Shown piece after piece: positions 80 to 26,800 of a stretch of DNA of 32,381 nt. The DNA lies in the IMG/VR virus record IMGVR_UViG_3300046010_004592, positions 1 through 32,381 of that record; one strand, written 5' to 3'. Under the pieces are notes generated by a model that did no database searches, was not told the origin of the DNA, and saw only the letters and a program-made list of their open reading frames with translations. The stretch is from a virus. The position numbers were made by a program, and so were the translations under genes. The first letter of the stretch is position 1. The number at the start of each line of letters is the position of its first letter.

Positions 80-87
80 TATTTATC
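80..87 (-). promoter_or_regulatory. T4-type late promoter box GATAAATA
   Basis: The minus strand reads GATAAATA, one base from the T4 late consensus TATAAATA. The box overlaps the TGA stop of the upstream fibre gene and lies 29 bases before the ATG at 51. In T4 such boxes are read by the gp55/gp33/gp45-modified host polymerase; use here is inferred from sequence only. Confidence 0.6.
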
Positions 88-3000
88 ACCAAGCTGATGT
101 CCATAGGTTGTTTAGCGTTAAAACGCGATCAACATATTTTTTATTTGGTACATCGGTTGGATTTGTTGGTGCTGTGTTTTGTGTTGCAGTACCATTTAAG
201 GTTAATTGTGAACCTGCTGCATACGTATCAGTTGATCCAGATTCGTGTGTAATTGCAGATCCTGCTGCATAGTTTTCCGTAGATCCAGTTCCGTGATTAA
301 CACCGGTTGGGAATTGAACTTTGTTACCAGCTGCTGGTTGAATTACTAAATCAACGTTATTCAATGTAGTAATTACATTACTAGATTGAAAAATATTACC
401 AGCAGTTAAACTTGTTACTGCTAAGTTTGCACCACCTGCACCTAATTGGCTAGCAATAAATGTTTTAATTGCTCGTTGTGTAGGAATTAATGCATCACTA
501 TTTGCAGTAAATGTGCCATCTGTACTAAATTGGCTAATCGTTGCTCCACTGCCGCTAAGTTGTAAACTATATAATCCAGATAAGTTAAAATTACTAGCGT
601 TCAAAGTAGCAATACCAGTCGCTTGTTGTACAGTAAACAAATTACCTACGTTAAAGTTACCATCTTGGTCAGTACATGTATAGAATACACGTCCGCCACC
701 ATTTTGTGTAACTTGTGCTGCAGCGGTTGGCTGTACTAACGGGTTATTAGGATAGTTTGTAGAAACAACATTTCCTGTTCCGATTGCTAAAAAGTCATGT
801 CCAGTTAATCGTACTTGACTGTATTGCGCTCGTATTGTTACTGCAGTACCTTGATCAGGAGCTAATGCAACTGATAAAGATGGATTAATTTGTAATGTTG
901 CAGTGTAATTTCCAGCTGATCCAGATTGACTAGATACTAAAACTACAGCATAGAAGTTAGTATTTCCAGCAATTGCAATTGATGATCCAGGTGTAGGAAG
1001 ATCAGTCAGTGCTTCGATTGTTAAATAATAACCAGTTTGTAAGAATTCAGCAACACCGTCACCTGTAATAGTAGCAAGTGCAGTTGTATAGCTAGTACCT
1101 CTATTACCCCATGTTGGTTGTCCTAAAACTCCATTTTGTTTTCTTACAGTGTATGTACCTGCGCTCGATGCATTTGGATCAATGATATTCATTGTAATAG
1201 AACCGGTGTATCCAGAACCCGGATTAATGATTCTAATTGCACTAATTGCACTCCCTGAAACAACTGCTCTAGCTATTGCGCCTGAGCCGCCTGTGCCAGT
1301 AAATGTAATTCTTGGTTCAATGCTATAAGTTGTTGTTGAATCTAATGCGGTATGGACTAGTGTGCCAGCTACCGCAACATCCCAACCTGGAGTACCTGTT
1401 GATTCTTGGTAAATCGTAGCAACTTTTGTACCTGCATTAAATGCCTGAATATAGCCGTATTGTCCAGTACCTTTACCTGCAGTTAACATTATTCTCATAC
1501 CAATGTATTGTGATGCGCTTGCAGTATCAGCAGCCGATAATGTAATCGTAGTTGCATCACCGATTTGCGCAGAGTTTACAGCTCTAATGTAACCGTTACC
1601 ACCGTTAGCAATACGTACTTCAGCAATTGCATTATTAAAGATGTTAGGAGAACTAACTGCTGCATTAAATCCTGTTCCAGTGATTGAATATGTTGCTGTT
1701 GAATATTCTTGCCCGGCGTTTGAATATTCTAACCATAAAATATTGTTACCGTCAGTTAATACATTTGTTATAGTTGCGTGTTGAGCACGGTTAGTAACAG
1801 TACCTGTAATTGGAATTTCAGTAGCATCATATGTTTCAGAAACTGATCCTAATGTACCATATGAGTTGTTACCGTTTGTTGCACGAATTTTACCACCAGA
1901 CTCACTCAAATAACCAATGTAGTTGTAATATGTAAATACCGAAACAAGTTCTGTTCTAGCATTTGTTCCTGTACACCATACACCAATACCGTCATTAATA
2001 ACTTGTGTAAAATCGTTTGCAACGATCGATTTATTGCCGCCACTATGTAATGAACCGTCAATTTTTAAACCAACACACATTGTACCAATTGTTGTTACAT
2101 TTTGAACGTAAGGTGATCTAGATATAATCCATACTGATGTATCGTCAACACCAGTACCTGGATCTAAACTAACAAATGCACCTGCAGTTGGACGTTTCGT
2201 ACCATAGCTATTAACAGGACCTAACGTACCAGTTAAACCAGTAAGTGTCATATTTCTAACACCAGAACCACTTCTAACATAGAACATGTTTGATGTTAAG
2301 TAACCGGCAGCTGGCTGAACAATAGTACCGCGTAACTCGTCGCCTACTAATGCAACATTAGGCGGAATACTAATTGGTAAAATTTCGTCATATGTACCGT
2401 TTTTTACAAAAATAGTTGCAGTTTCGCCTTGGTTAGCTATTGGAATCGAAGTTGTACTAACTGCAGCTAGTGCGGTAGTAATAATTCCAAATAATGTTGT
2501 TATTTTAGTGCTTGCCCCAGATTCAGCAGTGTAGCTTAAATTAATAGTTTGCGATACTGGACTCGGAGCAGACATTAGGGTTTGATAATTTTGTGCAGGG
2601 GCAGTGTTGCTAAGTGCGTTTCCTGTTAATCCTAACAATTTTGTAATAGCTGCCTTAATGTATTCAATCTCAGCTGCTACGGTTGTATTAACAAGTGTAT
2701 TAGTACTACCTGGAGAAAAATATGATAATGCAGTTTCAACTGATTGACTATTACCGCCTCTAGAAATATCGTAAATCATTGCATCAACAATATACTTTGC
2801 ATCACGTTGAGTTCTAGTTGCATCAAACACTGAACTAGGAGTAAATGGTGAATTACTATTAGCTTTTTGATAAAGCATCCAATAATACATTTCTTTTACC
2901 ATCCAGTTTTTATTTGCAGTTAATAAGAATCTAGCATTAGGATTAAACACACCGTTAGTAACTGCATTACATGCATATTTGATAGTTCTCCATGGTTTAT

Positions 3001-4831
3001 CTAACGTAGGACCGTAATCTGCAGCATCGGTTCCGTTAGTAGAAACATAAAATACGTTATCAATAGTACCAAATGCATCCCATGTTGGCAATCCGTTCAT
3101 AACACGTAATACTTGTCCGTCTGATCCAATTCCTAATCTTGTGTCAGATCCACTACCTGATCTATATGTAATATCGCCTGCGGTTGTGTTAAACGAGTTT
3201 GCACTGCCTTGTGCTAATAGTGTCCAATAAGTACCGGTTATATCCGCATCCGGTCTATTGCCAGCAGCAGCAGTGTGAGATAAAATACATGAATATGATG
3301 TTGAAGTATATGATACAACATCACCTAATTTGTATTCAGTACCGCTTGTCCATGCACCTTTACTCATTAAACCGGTGCTTAATAATGTCCAAGTACTTGT
3401 ACTTGTTGGTGGTGCAGTGTTAGTATTATCTATAGTAGCAACATACGTATACGCACCGTATCTAACAACATGGCCAACTAAGTATGCAGTTGCACTAGAC
3501 CAATCTCCCATCATTTTAAAGCCGGTAGTAATTGGGCTCCAATTACTTAAACTTAATGATGGAGTATTGTTAACGTTATTTGTAGTTAATGATACGTAAG
3601 TATAACCACCATATGTAACTACATCACCTAATGTATATGAGTCAACTGTGTTCCAGGTATCTACATATTGCAATCCTTCAACAAATATACTAAAGTTTGT
3701 AGTATTAAATGTACTGTTTGAAGTATGAGATGTATTACAAATCCATACATCGGCGCCGTACTTAACGACGTCATTTACTTTGTACGCAACCGGTTGAGAC
3801 CAATCACCTACAAAATTAATACCGTTGACTAAAACATTCCAGTTTGATTGATTTGTTTCAAGTGCAGCTGCGCTAGTGTGGCCAGTTTGACAAATGTAAG
3901 TAGTTCCACCGTAAGTAACGATGTCACCAATTTTATAATAAGTAGTTGCACTCCATGAACCACTCCATGAAACACCGTCTACTAATAAAGACCAGTTTGC
4001 AGAATCTAAATAAAACCCACTATTTGCAGTTGAACTTGATGTATGTCCAGTTGTACAAATATATTCTTTTGCACCAAATTTAGCAATATCACCAATTTTG
4101 TAATATGTAGAAATTGTCCATGTACCTTTCCAAGTTTGTCCTGTAGTTAACGGATCCCAGTTTGTTGAAAGATCAGAGTAAAATCCGCCTGCTAAAACTG
4201 AACTAGAAGTATGCCCTAATTTACAAATATAGCCATTTGCACCGTAAGTAACAATATCTCCAATTTTGTAATATGTAGATGTACCCCATGCACCAATCCA
4301 AGTTTGGCCATCAGTTAGTAAAGTCCAATTTGATGCATCTGCATAAAAACCGCTGTTAGCAGTTGCACTTGAAGTATGTCCTGATGTACAAATATAATTC
4401 TTACCGCCAAACTTAACAATATCACCAATCTTATAAAATGTAGAAGTACCCCATGTACCAATGAATACATAACCATCTGATAATAATGTCCAGTGTGTAG
4501 TTAAATCAGAATAAAATCCGCTGTTAGCAGTTGCACTTGAAGTATGTCCTGATATACAAATATAGTCTTTTGCACCAAATTTAATAATATCATTTTCTTT
4601 ATATACAGTACTAGGTGCCCATGATCCAGCCCAACTAACACCATCTGACATTACTGTCCATTTTGGTGTAGCTGCAGTTAAGTCAGAATAAAACGCACCT
4701 GATGTATGCCCAACTAAACATACATAAGTTCTACCGCCGTACTTTACTATATCATCTTTAACATACGCGTGTGACGTGATCCATGAACCTTGCCAAACAA
4801 AACGTAGTCGTCCTAATTTAAACTCTGCCAT
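86..4831 (-). CDS. Giant tail-fibre/adhesin with ten carbohydrate-binding-like repeats and a beta-helix region
   Basis: The 1581-residue protein is a probable receptor-binding fibre. Residues about 11-545 hold ten repeats of about 50 residues with the pattern W-x-G-x-W ... Y-K-x-G-D-I-V-x-Y-G ... Y-I-C ... G-H-T-S, which resembles small aromatic-rich carbohydrate-binding modules (CBM5/12-like, by pattern only). A short G-D-I-T-Y-R-S-G motif follows, then FYVSTNGTDAADYG near residue 594, typical of right-handed beta-helix (DUF1565-like) fibres. Gly/Ser/Thr-rich beta sequence continues to the end, where PTDVPNKKYVD near the C-terminus resembles fibre-tip sequences. AAGGAA precedes the ATG. Polysaccharide binding at the cell surface is inferred; no catalytic motif was recognised. 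Confidence 0.8.
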   Translation of the reverse strand: MAEFKLGRLRFVWQGSWITSHAYVKDDIVKYGGRTYVCLVGHTSGAFYSDLTAATPKWTVMSDGVSWAGSWAPSTVYKENDIIKFGAKDYICISGHTSSATANSGFYSDLTTHWTLLSDGYVFIGTWGTSTFYKIGDIVKFGGKNYICTSGHTSSATANSGFYADASNWTLLTDGQTWIGAWGTSTYYKIGDIVTYGANGYICKLGHTSSSVLAGGFYSDLSTNWDPLTTGQTWKGTWTISTYYKIGDIAKFGAKEYICTTGHTSSSTANSGFYLDSANWSLLVDGVSWSGSWSATTYYKIGDIVTYGGTTYICQTGHTSAAALETNQSNWNVLVNGINFVGDWSQPVAYKVNDVVKYGADVWICNTSHTSNSTFNTTNFSIFVEGLQYVDTWNTVDSYTLGDVVTYGGYTYVSLTTNNVNNTPSLSLSNWSPITTGFKMMGDWSSATAYLVGHVVRYGAYTYVATIDNTNTAPPTSTSTWTLLSTGLMSKGAWTSGTEYKLGDVVSYTSTSYSCILSHTAAAGNRPDADITGTYWTLLAQGSANSFNTTAGDITYRSGSGSDTRLGIGSDGQVLRVMNGLPTWDAFGTIDNVFYVSTNGTDAADYGPTLDKPWRTIKYACNAVTNGVFNPNARFLLTANKNWMVKEMYYWMLYQKANSNSPFTPSSVFDATRTQRDAKYIVDAMIYDISRGGNSQSVETALSYFSPGSTNTLVNTTVAAEIEYIKAAITKLLGLTGNALSNTAPAQNYQTLMSAPSPVSQTINLSYTAESGASTKITTLFGIITTALAAVSTTSIPIANQGETATIFVKNGTYDEILPISIPPNVALVGDELRGTIVQPAAGYLTSNMFYVRSGSGVRNMTLTGLTGTLGPVNSYGTKRPTAGAFVSLDPGTGVDDTSVWIISRSPYVQNVTTIGTMCVGLKIDGSLHSGGNKSIVANDFTQVINDGIGVWCTGTNARTELVSVFTYYNYIGYLSESGGKIRATNGNNSYGTLGSVSETYDATEIPITGTVTNRAQHATITNVLTDGNNILWLEYSNAGQEYSTATYSITGTGFNAAVSSPNIFNNAIAEVRIANGGNGYIRAVNSAQIGDATTITLSAADTASASQYIGMRIMLTAGKGTGQYGYIQAFNAGTKVATIYQESTGTPGWDVAVAGTLVHTALDSTTTYSIEPRITFTGTGGSGAIARAVVSGSAISAIRIINPGSGYTGSITMNIIDPNASSAGTYTVRKQNGVLGQPTWGNRGTSYTTALATITGDGVAEFLQTGYYLTIEALTDLPTPGSSIAIAGNTNFYAVVLVSSQSGSAGNYTATLQINPSLSVALAPDQGTAVTIRAQYSQVRLTGHDFLAIGTGNVVSTNYPNNPLVQPTAAAQVTQNGGGRVFYTCTDQDGNFNVGNLFTVQQATGIATLNASNFNLSGLYSLQLSGSGATISQFSTDGTFTANSDALIPTQRAIKTFIASQLGAGGANLAVTSLTAGNIFQSSNVITTLNNVDLVIQPAAGNKVQFPTGVNHGTGSTENYAAGSAITHESGSTDTYAAGSQLTLNGTATQNTAPTNPTDVPNKKYVDRVLTLNNLWTSAW
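3197..4801 (-). repeat. Ten tandem CBM-like repeats within the fibre gene
   Basis: Repeat starts are marked by W/F/Y-x-G-x-W at residues about 13, 67, 123, 178, 234, 289, 340, 389, 440 and 490 of the fibre. Repeats 2 and 3 are nearly identical at DNA level over the segment encoding GHTSSATANSGFY (plus-strand about 4345-4400 and 4515-4565), which indicates recent duplication. Repeats 8-10 are the most diverged and repeats 8 and 9 lose the HTS motif. Confidence 0.85.
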
Positions 4832-4857: not shown

Positions 4858-4865
4858 TATTTATT
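4858..4865 (-). promoter_or_regulatory. Late promoter box AATAAATA
   Basis: The minus strand reads AATAAATA, one base off TATAAATA, overlapping the TAA stop of the 121-aa gene and 27 bases before the ATG of the 1581-aa fibre. It would give the fibre its own late transcript. Confidence 0.5.
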
Positions 4866-5229
4866 ACGCATTGTCGGGACCATTGTAACTATATCTTTGA
4901 TTTACTCTAGCTACAAATTCGCCATTGCTGTTTATGTAATAATAAATGTTTCTGTCGTCCCATCTCATTTGTTCATAATTTAAATTAGGGTAGATTAAAT
5001 TATGGTATATATCGCGTCCTTCCAAGAAATCAACCCCAACATCAAATTCAGTAAAATTGTCAATTTCGTCTCCAGGAGCGTTTATTTGAATCGAATCAGT
5101 ATTACTTAACTGATCAACTTTTGAAATATAAAGGTCACCGTCATCAGTTCTGCGAAGTGCATACAAATATCGAGGTGCACCTCCTAAATCGTCAGTTGAT
5201 TGACCATATACGTTATTGCTATTACTCAT
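4864..5229 (-). CDS. Small virion-associated protein, unknown function (121 aa)
   Basis: This acidic, Asp/Asn/Tyr-rich protein has no recognised domain. It starts MSNSNNVYGQSTDDLGG and contains a Tyr-rich stretch (RNIYYYINSNGEF). AAGGAAAT lies directly upstream of the ATG, right after the stop of the 109-aa gene, so the two are probably co-translated. Its place between two fibre genes suggests a structural or fibre-accessory role, by context only. Confidence 0.7.
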   Translation of the reverse strand: MSNSNNVYGQSTDDLGGAPRYLYALRRTDDGDLYISKVDQLSNTDSIQINAPGDEIDNFTEFDVGVDFLEGRDIYHNLIYPNLNYEQMRWDDRNIYYYINSNGEFVARVNQRYSYNGPDNA

Positions 5230-19598: not shown

Positions 19599-20258
19599 CT
19601 ATTGGAGTATGTCTAAATTTAGACATTCTGTGTTATCTATTAGAGTACCTGATAGATTGTTTAGTTTTTTAGCTTTTTTAGCTAATTTAGTATTTCTTAT
19701 TTTTTCTTTTGTTTCAATTGAACGAGGAATACCTTTTAACGCATTACTACGTTTTTTATTTGATTCGTTAGTCTGCACATATCCAGTTACCCCTTTATTC
19801 CATGCTATTTTTCCAAACATTGGATTATTATTTCCTGTCTTGCAGATGCTTAATTTTTGTCGCGTTGCAATTGATGGGCTAACTCCGGGTTTACCTAATT
19901 TAGCTTTTGAAATTTTTTCTTTTTGAGACACTAGCATCGCTTTGCCTTTATTATGCGGTGTTAACCCAGCAGTTGAAAATTTACCATTACTGTTATGACG
20001 ATTAAAACTCATTGGATCATTTGCTGCATCTAACAATACTAATATACTAGTTTCTAATTCTCTAATATATTGAGGGTTACTAATAACTAAAATTGTATGC
20101 TTCCAATCATTTTGATTTTCTAAAATCATAGGCTTAACAACTTTACTAGAGCAAATATATCCGTCATTTGGAAAACATCCTTGCTTAGTTCTAGACCCTA
20201 TATACCATTTGTTAGATGGTATATGTGTCCATTTATAAAGATATGCGTGTGTTCTCAT
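19599..20258 (-). CDS. Free-standing GIY-YIG homing endonuclease
   Basis: The N-terminal domain (about 1-90) shows the divergent GIY-YIG core Y6-L7-Y8 and Y19-I20-G21, with R23 shortly after and a catalytic-type glutamate in IRELET (E67 or E69). Residues about 98-190 carry NUMOD3-like DNA-binding repeats (GLTPHNKGK, SQKEKISKAKLGKPG, NPMFGKIAWNKG, SNALKGIPRS), giving a basic C-terminal half. It is a seg-type selfish nuclease inserted between 21 and 22. Its ATG overlaps the TGA of 21 (ATGA), so it is translationally coupled. It leaves gene 22 with an intact ribosome site. No intron is apparent. Target sequence and activity are unknown. Confidence 0.9.
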   Translation of the reverse strand: MRTHAYLYKWTHIPSNKWYIGSRTKQGCFPNDGYICSSKVVKPMILENQNDWKHTILVISNPQYIRELETSILVLLDAANDPMSFNRHNSNGKFSTAGLTPHNKGKAMLVSQKEKISKAKLGKPGVSPSIATRQKLSICKTGNNNPMFGKIAWNKGVTGYVQTNESNKKRSNALKGIPRSIETKEKIRNTKLAKKAKKLNNLSGTLIDNTECLNLDILQ

Positions 20259-20884: not shown

Positions 20885-21757
20885 TTACTTTCTGCCTGGA
20901 ATTAAGCTTCTTTTGTTAGTTCCATTGTCACCTGTAGATTTTTTCTCTGCACCGTGGCCTTTTGGAACTGGTTTTAATTTAGGAGCTTTTGCATTACCAG
21001 GAACATTTTGATTACCGCCATCCATTTTAGATGTAGTAGGTTTTAACAATCCGCCTTGTGTACCTTCACCAGTAGCTGTGCCACCAAATTTAGGAGCTAC
21101 GCCGCCCATGTCATTGTATTTTGGTTTGTTAAAAATGCTTTTGTTGTTAATGCCGTTGTCACCGTGTTTTGGTAATGCAACTTTGTTAACATATTCAAAC
21201 ATACTTTGGAATTCGTCAACTTCTTCGTCATCGCCCATGCCTAATTCGTCATCGCCCATGCCTAATTCGTCATCGCCCATGCCTAATTCGTCATCGCCAC
21301 CAAACATATCAGCGTGTTCTGGTTCATCATCTTCACCAGCCATTAATTGTTCAAATTCTGCTCTTAGATCGTCTAATGAATCTTTTAAATCATGAACTTC
21401 GTCTTGTAGTCCGGCTAAATCGCCGCCTTCTTCGTCGCCAAATTCGTCATCAGAACCAAATTCGTCGTCGCCTTCTTCATCACCAAACTCACCGTCGTCT
21501 TCTGCATCGTCATCTCCGAATCCGCCAAACTCTCCGTCGTCTTCTGTATCGTCTTCTGAGTCGTCTTCGCCTTCTTCGTCATCATCGCCAAATGCTTCGC
21601 CAACTTCTTCTTCATCTGTAAATTCGTTTTCTAATAAATTTTCATAAATTTCGCGTGATTTTGCTACAACAATATTGTGAAATATATCTTTTGCTGCTTC
21701 ATGATCTTCATTGATCAATGCCTCAAGCATGGCTTCAAATTTTTTGCGGTCAGTCAT
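20885..21757 (-). CDS. Acidic prohead core protein, gp67-like
   Basis: The first about 45 residues (KKFEAMLEALINEDHEAAKDIFHNIVV) form a short helix-rich head. A strongly acidic Asp/Glu/Gly tract follows at about 46-180, then a basic Gly/Lys/Pro-rich tail (KLKPVPKGHG, SLIPGRK). T4 gp67 is a short protein with a comparable helical start and acidic tail encoded between 20 and 21, which is the basis of the call. At 290 residues this one is much larger and may combine core functions (67 and 68). AGGAG precedes the ATG. The acidic tract contains a perfect 7-residue tandem repeat. Confidence 0.7.
   Translation of the reverse strand: MTDRKKFEAMLEALINEDHEAAKDIFHNIVVAKSREIYENLLENEFTDEEEVGEAFGDDDEEGEDDSEDDTEDDGEFGGFGDDDAEDDGEFGDEEGDDEFGSDDEFGDEEGGDLAGLQDEVHDLKDSLDDLRAEFEQLMAGEDDEPEHADMFGGDDELGMGDDELGMGDDELGMGDDEEVDEFQSMFEYVNKVALPKHGDNGINNKSIFNKPKYNDMGGVAPKFGGTATGEGTQGGLLKPTTSKMDGGNQNVPGNAKAPKLKPVPKGHGAEKKSTGDNGTNKRSLIPGRK
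21224..21298 (-). repeat. Perfect 21-bp tandem repeat (DDELGMG) in the gp67-like gene
   Basis: Three identical 21-base units (21224-21244, 21245-21265, 21266-21286) plus a 12-base partial unit encode GMGDDEL repeats. Because the unit is a multiple of three, copy-number change keeps the frame. Confidence 0.95.
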
Positions 21758-23894: not shown

Positions 23895-26800
23895 TTATCC
23901 CAACAAGTTACCTGATAATCCTTTAGTTGCTTTGACTTGTTTATGACTATTACTGCTAATAGTATCGGTATGTTGGGCCATTTGTGCCATAGTCTTATTT
24001 AACTGTATTAACGCTTCGTGTAGATCTTTTAATGTTGTTTCTTTTGATACTATAGCAGGAGCTACAGGTGGTGGTTGTACTGGTTTAGGTGGCTCTATCG
24101 GTTTAGGTTTTTCTGTAGGTTTAGGTTGTTCAATGTCTTTCTTTGATAACGCTGCATGATCCGGTTTTACATCTTTAATTGACGCATGTGATTGTTTTAC
24201 TTCAGCCGAAACTCTAGTATTGTAGTCATTAAATGTTTCTAATCCAAACTTTTTGTACATTTCCTTAACATGTGCTTGCTCTTTTGTTTCAGGCGGCTTC
24301 TTAATGTCAGCTTTAGATGGTTCAACTTTAGGTTTATCATCAATTTTAGCAGGTTCTTTAGATTTATCATCTTTAATATCAGGTTTTTGTTTATAATAAC
24401 TTGAATGCTGTCTATCAAGCTCTGCTTTTTGCGCTGCAATTGCTTCTGGACTATTATCTATTGTTCCGATGCTTTCTTGCATGCGTTTATTTTTAGCATC
24501 TATTTCTGCTTGTGGAATTTCTTCGTATTTTACATTGCCTTTGGCAAATCCAGGTTTATTATCTCCTTTAAATATTCCAGAAATAGACGAACCTACATCA
24601 CTAAATGTATCTGATATCGAATCAAAGAACCCTTTTTCTTTTGGTTCTTCTTTAGGTGGTTCATATTTAGTAGTAATATCTTCTAATTTTGGTAATCCTG
24701 CAGGTTTAATAGTTGCATCTAATGATTTAAAAGAACTTCCAAGCTGTTCACGCAACTGATCAAATTTAGGATCAGTAACTGGTTTTATACCTTCAGGTTT
24801 TAATGGTGGTGGTTTATTACCACTACTATACATTGCAAAATTCTTTTCAGCATCGGTCATTTCCTTAATAGGCTTATCAGTTACTTTAGGTTTTTCAGCT
24901 AATGACTTTGCAGTTGCACCATGCTCTTTCATAAAGGTCTTTTCAGCTTCTAATGCTTGTGCAACTTGTTTTGCTTGTGCTTCTTTAGCAGTTTTATTTT
25001 TAACTTCGGCATGTTTAGCTTCTTCTTCAGCATGAAGTTTTAACTTACCTTTAGTTTTGATTAGATCGTCTTCATATGTAAGTGCTAATTTTGCAACTTC
25101 TTCTTTTTTCTTAGCTAATTTCTCTGCAGATTCGGCATTTGGCTTAGTATTGTCTGCTTTCATTTGCTCATAGTCAAAAGATGCGTTTTCTAATGCTTCA
25201 CGTTTCTTTTGTAATGCTGCACGAGCTGCGGACGGTCCTAATTTGTCTTCTGCAGCTTTACCAGAGTCACTAAGATCCATTTGCGACATACCAATTTTAG
25301 ATATATCGCCAGAATTCATTGATTGTTTAAACTTAGCTAAGTTAATTAGGCTTTCGTCTAACTTAGAAACATCAGGCGCTTTAGGTTTAGGCGGAGGAGC
25401 AACTGTAGTTTTAGATTTTTCAGCTGATGCTGACTTAACTTCAGTTAGCGAACCAGTAACTGATTTACCTAAATCTTCCATATGTTTAGCAACAGCAGTA
25501 ACTGCAGGGTCGTCTGCAGGACGTCCTTGTTTTAATAAATCTGCAAGTTGTGATTCAATAATTGGACGATCATGCTTTGCATCTTCATCGGTTCGCGTAC
25601 TAAGTTCTTTTAATTTGTCTTTTGCCCAACTAGTATCAACATCCCACTTAGTTTGTTTAAAACTACCTTTTGGTAAATCAGTTCCTTCTTCAAGTGTTTT
25701 TAATTCTTCAGGAGTCTTGGCTTTTGGAGTTGATTGAGTGCCAATAATTTTGTTAAAATGTTCACCTAACTGTGCAATAGATTGCTGTTCTACTAATTTA
25801 AAAGGATTATCTGCAGATTTTTGTTCTGTTTTTTCTTCTTTAGTAATACCAGCTTTAATAGTAGTAGCTAGTTGTTTCATTTCAGCTTTTGCTATTTCTG
25901 ATTGTTTAGATTCAACTGGTTTAACTTCTGGTTTAACTTCAGCTTTAGGTGGTTCAACTGGTTTAACTTCTGGTTTAACTTCAGCTTTAGGTGGTTCAAC
26001 TGGTTTAACTTCTGGTTTAACTTCAGCTTTAGGTGGTTCAACTGGTTTAACTACTGCAGTTTTAGTTTGCGGAGTAGCTTTTTCAATTGCTTTAGTAACT
26101 GTTTCATGCATTTCTTTTGCTTGAGGAGCAAATGTAATGTTTTTAAATTTCTCAGCAATTTCACCAAACTGTTTAGCAACACCTTTCATTTCAGTATTAA
26201 TATCTGTAAACGTTTTGCCTAGATCTGTTAGTTGTGGTGTAGCTGCAGTTTGATCTGTTGGTTTTGCAGTATCTTTAACATCTGTAGTAGACGGTGCAGA
26301 TGCTTTTGATTGTTTTTGTTCAGCCGACGGAGATGCAGGTGGCATCATTTGCTGAATGAATCGTTTCATTTGATCTTCATTAGCTACAATTTCATTACCG
26401 TGTAGCTCTGCAAGCTCACCTTTAGGATCAAAAGGTGTAAACATGTCTTTAAAACCGCCACCTCCTGATAAGAATTTTTCAAATTGAGGAGTACCATCGG
26501 CAAAATGCCATTTAGGTGATGCACCTGATTGTTCTGGAGTTAATTTTGTTGCATTGTTACTAGCTTCTTGAGCTTTTTTATGAGCATCACTTAACGGTAT
26601 AGCTGATTTAAACCCATCAGTAATCTCTTTAGCCATGTTTCCGGGTGTTGCTTGTTCTTGTGTTCTAGGTTTAAGTGCATCGTTAATGCCACTAAATGTG
26701 TTAACTAGTTTATTTCCTGATTCAACTAAGTCACCAAACACCTTAGATGCACCGGCTGACATGTCTTTTAATGTACGATCAGCTTTGTTTAGAGTAGTAT

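Follow-up and report, generated by a model that had tools for sequence, protein, structure and literature searches.

A ten-unit CBM5/12-like array at the N terminus of a T4-like phage tail fibre, probably a tail-proximal stalk

Small domains of the CBM5/12 type are already known from fibres and spikes of phages. In the accessible sections of the Milano structure report, residues 1–175 of gp124 form a tail-binding module of two small domains followed by a β-helix (PMC10811340). The long fibre of phage 7-7-1 is anchored by residues 1–120, according to the available part of its description (PMC12796354), and this fibre, too, has a β-helix preceded by a tail-binding N-terminal module with small domains of the CBM5/12 type. 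Domain D2 of the CBA120 tail spike TSP1, part of the head-binding domain, has the fold of the ChiA1 chitin-binding domain, and the authors state in the available extract that there had been no report of such domains binding polysaccharide (PMC3966878). The joint domain of A-1(L) gp33 (residues 111–215) binds the wedges, as given in an excerpt of PMC10966104. The order of parts found in the fibre presented here is thus already known, with CBM-like domains located at the tail. Regarding the chitinase modules themselves, the portion of PMC8449059 at hand stresses exposed aromatic residues for CBM5/12 binding, with a Tyr-Trp or Trp-Trp pair in CBM5, and the title of one of its references names Trp687 and Gln679 as chitin-binding residues of ChiA1.

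The window, that is the whole stretch of DNA analysed, is an entire virus record of 32,381 bases (IMGVR_UViG_3300046010_004592). The array gene (positions 86–4831, minus strand) encodes a protein of 1581 residues. The phage is a large T4-like one, and the protein belongs to the PHROG 9851 tail fibres (E = 1.1e-232 for the whole protein against the tail fiber profile). The major capsid protein has its best matches in jumbo T4-like phages (Phosso and Vibrio phage 2.275.O, then CBB and GAP32), with at most 69% identity, and the best named relatives of the fibre are T4-like cyanophages and one pelagiphage, each with less than 60% identity. The PHROG 9851 tail fibers of the marine T4-like phages P-SSM5, S-CAM1 and Pelagibacter phage Mosig belong to the same family, with the same leader and an N-terminal array, but they have 5–6 units instead of ten and a shorter C-terminal part. 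The family is very common: in each of six profile scans of viral contigs, at least 543–593 relatives were confirmed. With its ten units, the window fibre is one case of a widespread family.

The protein begins with a conserved leader of ten residues, MAEFKLGRLR (4802–4831, minus strand), in which seven positions (M1, A2, F4, K5, L6, G7 and R8) are invariant in the 52 aligned family members. Ten contiguous units of 49–56 residues follow (aa 11–542, window 3206–4801), as claimed in the preliminary description. Delimited by alignment and all on the minus strand, they are R1 (aa 11–64, 4640–4801), R2 (aa 65–120, 4472–4639), R3 (aa 121–175, 4307–4471), R4 (aa 176–231, 4139–4306), R5 (aa 232–286, 3974–4138), R6 (aa 287–337, 3821–3973), R7 (aa 338–386, 3674–3820), R8 (aa 387–437, 3521–3673), R9 (aa 438–487, 3371–3520) and R10 (aa 488–542, 3206–3370). 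Units R2 to R5 carry a GFY-type loop, a class common to the loci L016, L018 and L019. The W-x-G-x-W ... HTS signature that had been attributed to all ten copies is less regular: the strict W-x-G-x-W is found in five units (R1, R2, R4, R5, R6) and HTS in seven (R1–R7). The relationship to CBM5/12 was borne out by the HMM search. Pfam PF02839 (CBM_5_12) matches the protein over nine stretches with E = 8.9e-52 and 173.3 bits against a cut-off of 26.2, and six of the nine single matches lie above the curated cut-off. Eight of the nine end at model position 29–32 of 44, so that the units cover the front of the model.

An AlphaFold model of residues 1–644 as a monomer has a mean pLDDT of 81.9 and a pTM of 0.45. 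The best PDB matches of the array model in Foldseek are the 7-7-1 tail fibres, then chitin deacetylases, then the Milano baseplate. With VIA-align, unit R8 has its best structural match in residues 134–184 of the A-1(L) tail fibre 8kec_a (Z 9.4, 0.9 Å over 49 residues). These residues fall within the joint domain if chain a is gp33, as the chain length suggests; this is a single domain inside another kind of fibre, in contrast to the tandem array. Unit R9 superimposes onto chitinase C 1wvv_B (Z 8.7, 1.2 Å over 46), and unit R10, which also matches chitin deacetylase CBMs, onto 1ed7 (Z 5.9, 1.4 Å over 44). Residues 75–118 of Milano 8fqc_P1 (Z 6.8, 1.5 Å over 44) and residues 74–119 of 7-7-1 9rkv_M (Z 6.2) were also matched with VIA-align; Z-scores of 6–9 to phage modules are about the level of common small folds. 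The family sequence profile matches 9rkv_M over residues 29–102 (E = 0.0016) and, weakly, 8fqc_P1 (Milano gp124) over residues 29–95 (E = 0.7). The CBM5/12-type fold, which structure prediction had been expected to confirm or deny, is therefore supported by both the sequence and the structural matches (1wvv_B, 1ed7). Like Milano gp124, the window fibre has matching small domains in its N-terminal module, with ten domains instead of the two of Milano and 7-7-1. Paired array genes are not mentioned in the available text on these two phages (PMC10811340, PMC12796354), and CBA120 TSP1 D2, likened here from its partly accessible description, is a single domain and not an array.

The N-terminal placement of the repeats, considered unusual at first, is the rule in the family: the first unit begins at residue 10–19 in all 507 of the 5′-complete arrays among the matches listed. 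In a first set of 85 proteins, restricted to best matches and to the longest array gene of each locus, there are 8 units in 73 proteins, 10 in four, 5 in three, 7 in three, 9 in one and 6 in one. Unit numbers group by lineage among the matches listed. Unit types are position-specific across the relatives. The outer units R1 and R7–R10 have position-matched counterparts, and variation is confined to the interior block. Where unit starts lie far apart, the cause is mostly an insert in the loop that joins HTS to the last Trp, and not the loss of a unit. Such inserts, of about 70–220 residues in the loop of single units, are found in gene A of L117, L127, L139, L163 and others, and in gene B of L102 and others; the insert of L117 is a CBM5/12-like unit itself.

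The DNA of repeats 2 and 3 had been regarded as near-identical and as a sign of active expansion. R2 and R3 share 118 of 165 nucleotides (72% of DNA, 65% of amino acids) with a dS of 0.86, and R5 is equally close to both (119/165 and dS 0.53 with R2; 120/165 and dS 1.01 with R3). The nearest unit pairs in the window are thus at 72–73% DNA identity. Ten units are also present in two near-identical contigs, L001 and L002. L001 differs from the window by 9 nucleotide changes over the gene, none of them in the array, and L002 by 74, of which 4 are in the array, where change is significantly less frequent than in the rest of the gene (Fisher p = 6.6e-9). Comparison of repeat number and synonymous divergence, which had been put forward as the test of expansion, gives a stable number, old copies and a clustering of unit numbers by lineage. 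Active expansion was accordingly rejected; judged by their divergence, the copies of the array are not young. R2 and R3 have an exact run of 36 nucleotides in common (4518–4553 in R2, 4350–4385 in R3, minus strand). Permutation of identical codons gives p = 0.006 for this run, uncorrected for 15 pairs, and a short tract of gene conversion between R2 and R3 is therefore possible.

In most relatives the array gene is not alone. Two adjacent array genes, A upstream and B downstream, are present in 67 of the 85 loci. The two genes are homologous, and it is gene B that carries the leader type of the window ORF. Units were counted in both genes by HMM with an end pattern. The raw counts were equal in 117/129, 21/26 and 23/24 pairs of three successive sets (161/179, among the matches listed). 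After inspection, 175 of 177 evaluable pairs among the matches listed are plainly equal, and two more (L117 and L437) are equal provided that a segment resembling a unit, lodged within another unit, is left uncounted. The 177 pairs are divided into 84 with 8/8 units, 92 with 7/7 (including L117 and L437) and one with 9/9. Repeat pairs had been removed when the first 250 residues of both genes were identical in the first set, or the first 200 of either gene in the second and third sets, so that near-copies remain. When the pairing of 153 pairs was shuffled 2000 times, with relatedness ignored, 75.5 pairs were equal on average and 96 at most.

The 18 raw mismatches were judged by eye once the counting rule had come under suspicion, with 14 resolved and two set aside, which counts against the reading built on the equal numbers. 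Eleven of the 12 unequal pairs among the 129 were judged to be miscounts: nine in which the end pattern had cut too early, which are 8/8, and two that are 7/7. The full sequence was considered for gene A of L027, L062, L131 and L161, plus L117 and L224; the remaining six pairs have the same spacing pattern as L062 and L224. In L117, a whole unit is nested in the loop of unit 6 of gene A. Among the five unequal pairs of the 26, L336, L363 and L380 were miscounted at inserts, and L395 and L400 are truncated loci that were left out. In L437, a unit-like segment lies within unit 5 of gene A, for which the alternative reading is a true 8 versus 7; L241 has the same anatomy, yet was counted as 7.

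The equality of unit numbers in paired genes suggests stalks of matched length. The partly accessible literature that was searched contained no description of equal unit numbers in paired fibre genes. The equal numbers could also be merely inherited, from a single duplication of one array gene per lineage after which neither copy changed its number of units. Such an explanation concerns the equal numbers and leaves the function of the array aside. It is favoured by the homology of A and B and by the small number of independent changes. In a tree computed for 86 B genes from the region that follows the array, the unit number switches 4 times between 7 and 8. Four independent pairs lie on starred branches and gene A is concordant in all four (two-sided sign test, p = 0.125); on the A tree, 2/2 are concordant on starred branches (p = 0.5), with 4 on all branches. 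With so few independent changes the sign test is unable to reach 0.05. In a joint tree, all 86 A rows and 8 single-gene rows, that of the window included, form a 94-row group without B rows (support 91, with an open fork and a midpoint root). This grouping argues against simple inheritance, as the duplication into A and B seems older than the changes between 7 and 8 units. The 9/9 locus L403 also argues against it. There, A4 and A5 are mutually nearest (71% of amino acids, 126/165 nucleotides), and so are B4 and B5 (75%, 122/165), so that A and B each seem, from these identities, to have made their own duplication at the same index. In the 7/7 loci, the absent unit is assigned to positions 2–4 in both genes in 74 of 74 pairs scored, with small score margins. 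Altogether inheritance is considered a rather unlikely explanation of the equal numbers. That the paired fibre proteins of large aquatic phages have stalks which need the same number of beads and run in register, the number changing jointly at the same interior place, is put forward tentatively, at somewhat less than even chances. If true, the reach of the fibre would be set by a two-chain protein ruler, of which the single-gene lineage of the window would be a one-chain version. Equal bead numbers provide a simple, testable rule on the joint building of two fibre proteins. One record of 76.6 kb, IMGVR_UViG_3300021373_002801, has two separate array pairs (L157 and L202), each 7/7.

The window belongs to the single-array kind at this place, since its ORF directly follows a 121-aa neighbour (PHROG 8997 by profile match; 4864–5229, minus strand). 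In many two-gene relatives, this 121-aa gene lies about 4–6 kb upstream of B, with gene A in between. Across 83 loci, it is directly upstream of the array gene in 6, at another distance in 56 and without a match in 21. Loci with one 5′-complete array number 127 among the matches listed, and 67 of these have more than 5.5 kb upstream without a second array; this set includes the truncated locus L185 as well as L280, L305 and L323, which have a weak extra match. The 67 loci show 5, 6, 8, 9 or 10 units. The only array of a 197-kb S-CAM1-like record has five units; records of 353 and 200 kb each have one pair of long arrays and, at other places, a few isolated matches. In L001 (5965–11927) and L002 (8047–14009), the gene that directly follows the fibre gene on its downstream side encodes a protein of at least 1987 residues without array units and runs off both contigs.

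The preliminary description proposed multivalent weak binding, in which the beads would work as carbohydrate-binding modules and hold the phage on a surface polysaccharide. In agreement with this, the Pfam CBM_5_12 score is far over the cut-off, the fold matches the CBMs of chitinase and chitin deacetylases, and the window units have the fold and the core aromatic residues in common with the CBM5/12 modules of bacterial chitinases. They differ from these modules by a replaced ligand loop and by their arrangement in tandem without linkers. In the alignment, none of the ten units has the loop Trp of the ChiA1 Trp687 type. The exposed aromatic binding residues of chitin-binding CBM5/12 are thus lacking, and an aromatic pair, F-Y, is present in the ligand loop of R1–R5 only. 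The loop of R7 has a single Phe and that of R10 a Tyr next to the last Trp; those of R6, R8 and R9 contain no aromatic residue in the alignment. The matches listed comprise 2824 distinct units, and the loop was compared in the 1494 of HT[SA] type without big inserts. Of these, 22 have a Trp like that of ChiA1 with another Trp behind it, and 1472 lack it. Ten of the 22 were inspected and are mostly like the first units of S-CAM1-type cyanophages.

All 52 aligned members have an aromatic residue at position 47 of unit 1 (F47 in the window), and this favours binding, as do the F-Y pair and the ChiA1-like Trp of the 22 family units. At F162 and F273, by contrast, the aligned rows have Leu in 46/51 and 46/50 cases, window included, and the remaining conserved aromatics mostly belong to the repeated core. 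Also against sugar-binding beads are the Pfam matches that stop at position 29–32 of the model, the tail-proximal location of the matching modules in solved phages, where they hold the protein to the tail, and the equality in unit number of paired genes. Multivalent binding of polysaccharide by the array is therefore held to be unlikely, while unit 1, or the F-Y loops of R1–R5, may bind weakly, given the residues they carry. A CBM annotation tempts one to regard a phage fibre as a glycan adhesin. In this fibre, the placement of the array, its changed ligand loop and the relatives of known structure indicate a structural role, and the way this very common family is annotated would be affected.

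It is proposed instead that the array is probably a stalk close to the tail, by which a long tail fibre is also anchored. This reading relies on the solved spikes of Milano and 7-7-1, which have the same order of parts and attach via such domains. That the stalk would be built to length, rather than be a sticky head, relies on the matching unit numbers of neighbouring fibre genes. The fold family, the N-terminal position and the fixed order of the units are established, as are the equal numbers; together with the changed loop and the solved relatives, the position and the equal numbers fit a stalk better than a multivalent head. The invariant leader would dock on the tail. The CBM5/12-type beads would stack in fixed order into a presumably stiff spacer whose length is set, and the parts beyond it (helical, β-helical and C-terminal) would reach and bind. 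The fibre is presumed to trimerize. In most relatives, the two adjacent genes would make two stalks of equal bead number, and the paired proteins may pack alongside each other in register or assemble together. The lineage of the window has a single array gene at this place, with ten beads, the extra ones in the interior, R2–R5. The possible signs of binding in R1–R5 and at position 47 of unit 1 count against a stalk. It also counts against a plain anchor that identity to distant relatives is lower in the array (about 41%) than beyond aa 850 (about 53%). No virion structure of the array family was found.

The array might alternatively be a docking hub, a rack for other fibres or spikes like the XD domains of CBA120 TSP4 or RaK2 gp528. 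Tandem N-terminal domains are docking sites in TSP4 and were proposed as such in gp528, as stated in the available parts of PMC8825819 and PMC10253068. The several fibre-like genes that flank the array gene and the position-specific unit types would suit this function. However, XD2 and XD3 are jellyrolls, another fold, in the same partial accounts, and a hub is deemed very unlikely. The XD fold (T4 gp10, CBA120 TSP4) was absent from the structural matches listed, though it may lie beyond that listing.

Behind the array, residues 543–1581 were modelled with a mean pLDDT of 66.6 and weak matches to beta-helical proteins. The β-helix said to follow the repeats is accordingly plausible, and the β-rich region of about aa 805–1335 (827–2419, minus strand) is probably β-helical from the model and the weak structural matches. 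Relatives align at aa 851 in 72 of 83 cases, with a mean identity of 53%. Between the array and this region, a helical domain (about aa 590–789; 2465–3064, minus strand) has a phycobiliprotein-like fold in the model. It matches 7ap5_BBB (Z 14.5, 6.0 Å over 162 residues) and 2vjh_B (Z 14.5, 2.7 Å over 134), and Foldseek gives a probability of 1.00 for several phycobiliproteins. The top match of its sequence profile is CpcA (phycocyanin alpha), at E = 0.55 only, and the Pfam search gave no phycobilisome match to this domain. A C-x-R-D motif, like the bilin site of phycocyanin, has Cys in 280 of 323 distinct copies in the helical domains of the family among the matches listed; in the window, Thr replaces this Cys. 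A bilin-binding fibre is possible.

Young repeats are present elsewhere in the window: a 42-nt unit in 3.5 copies (99%) at 25911–26056 in an ORF of 1395 residues, and a 21-nt unit in 3.6 copies (100%) at 21224–21298 in an acidic ORF. Near the capsid genes, a 219-aa ORF (19599–20258) is, by eye, a candidate GIY-YIG homing endonuclease.
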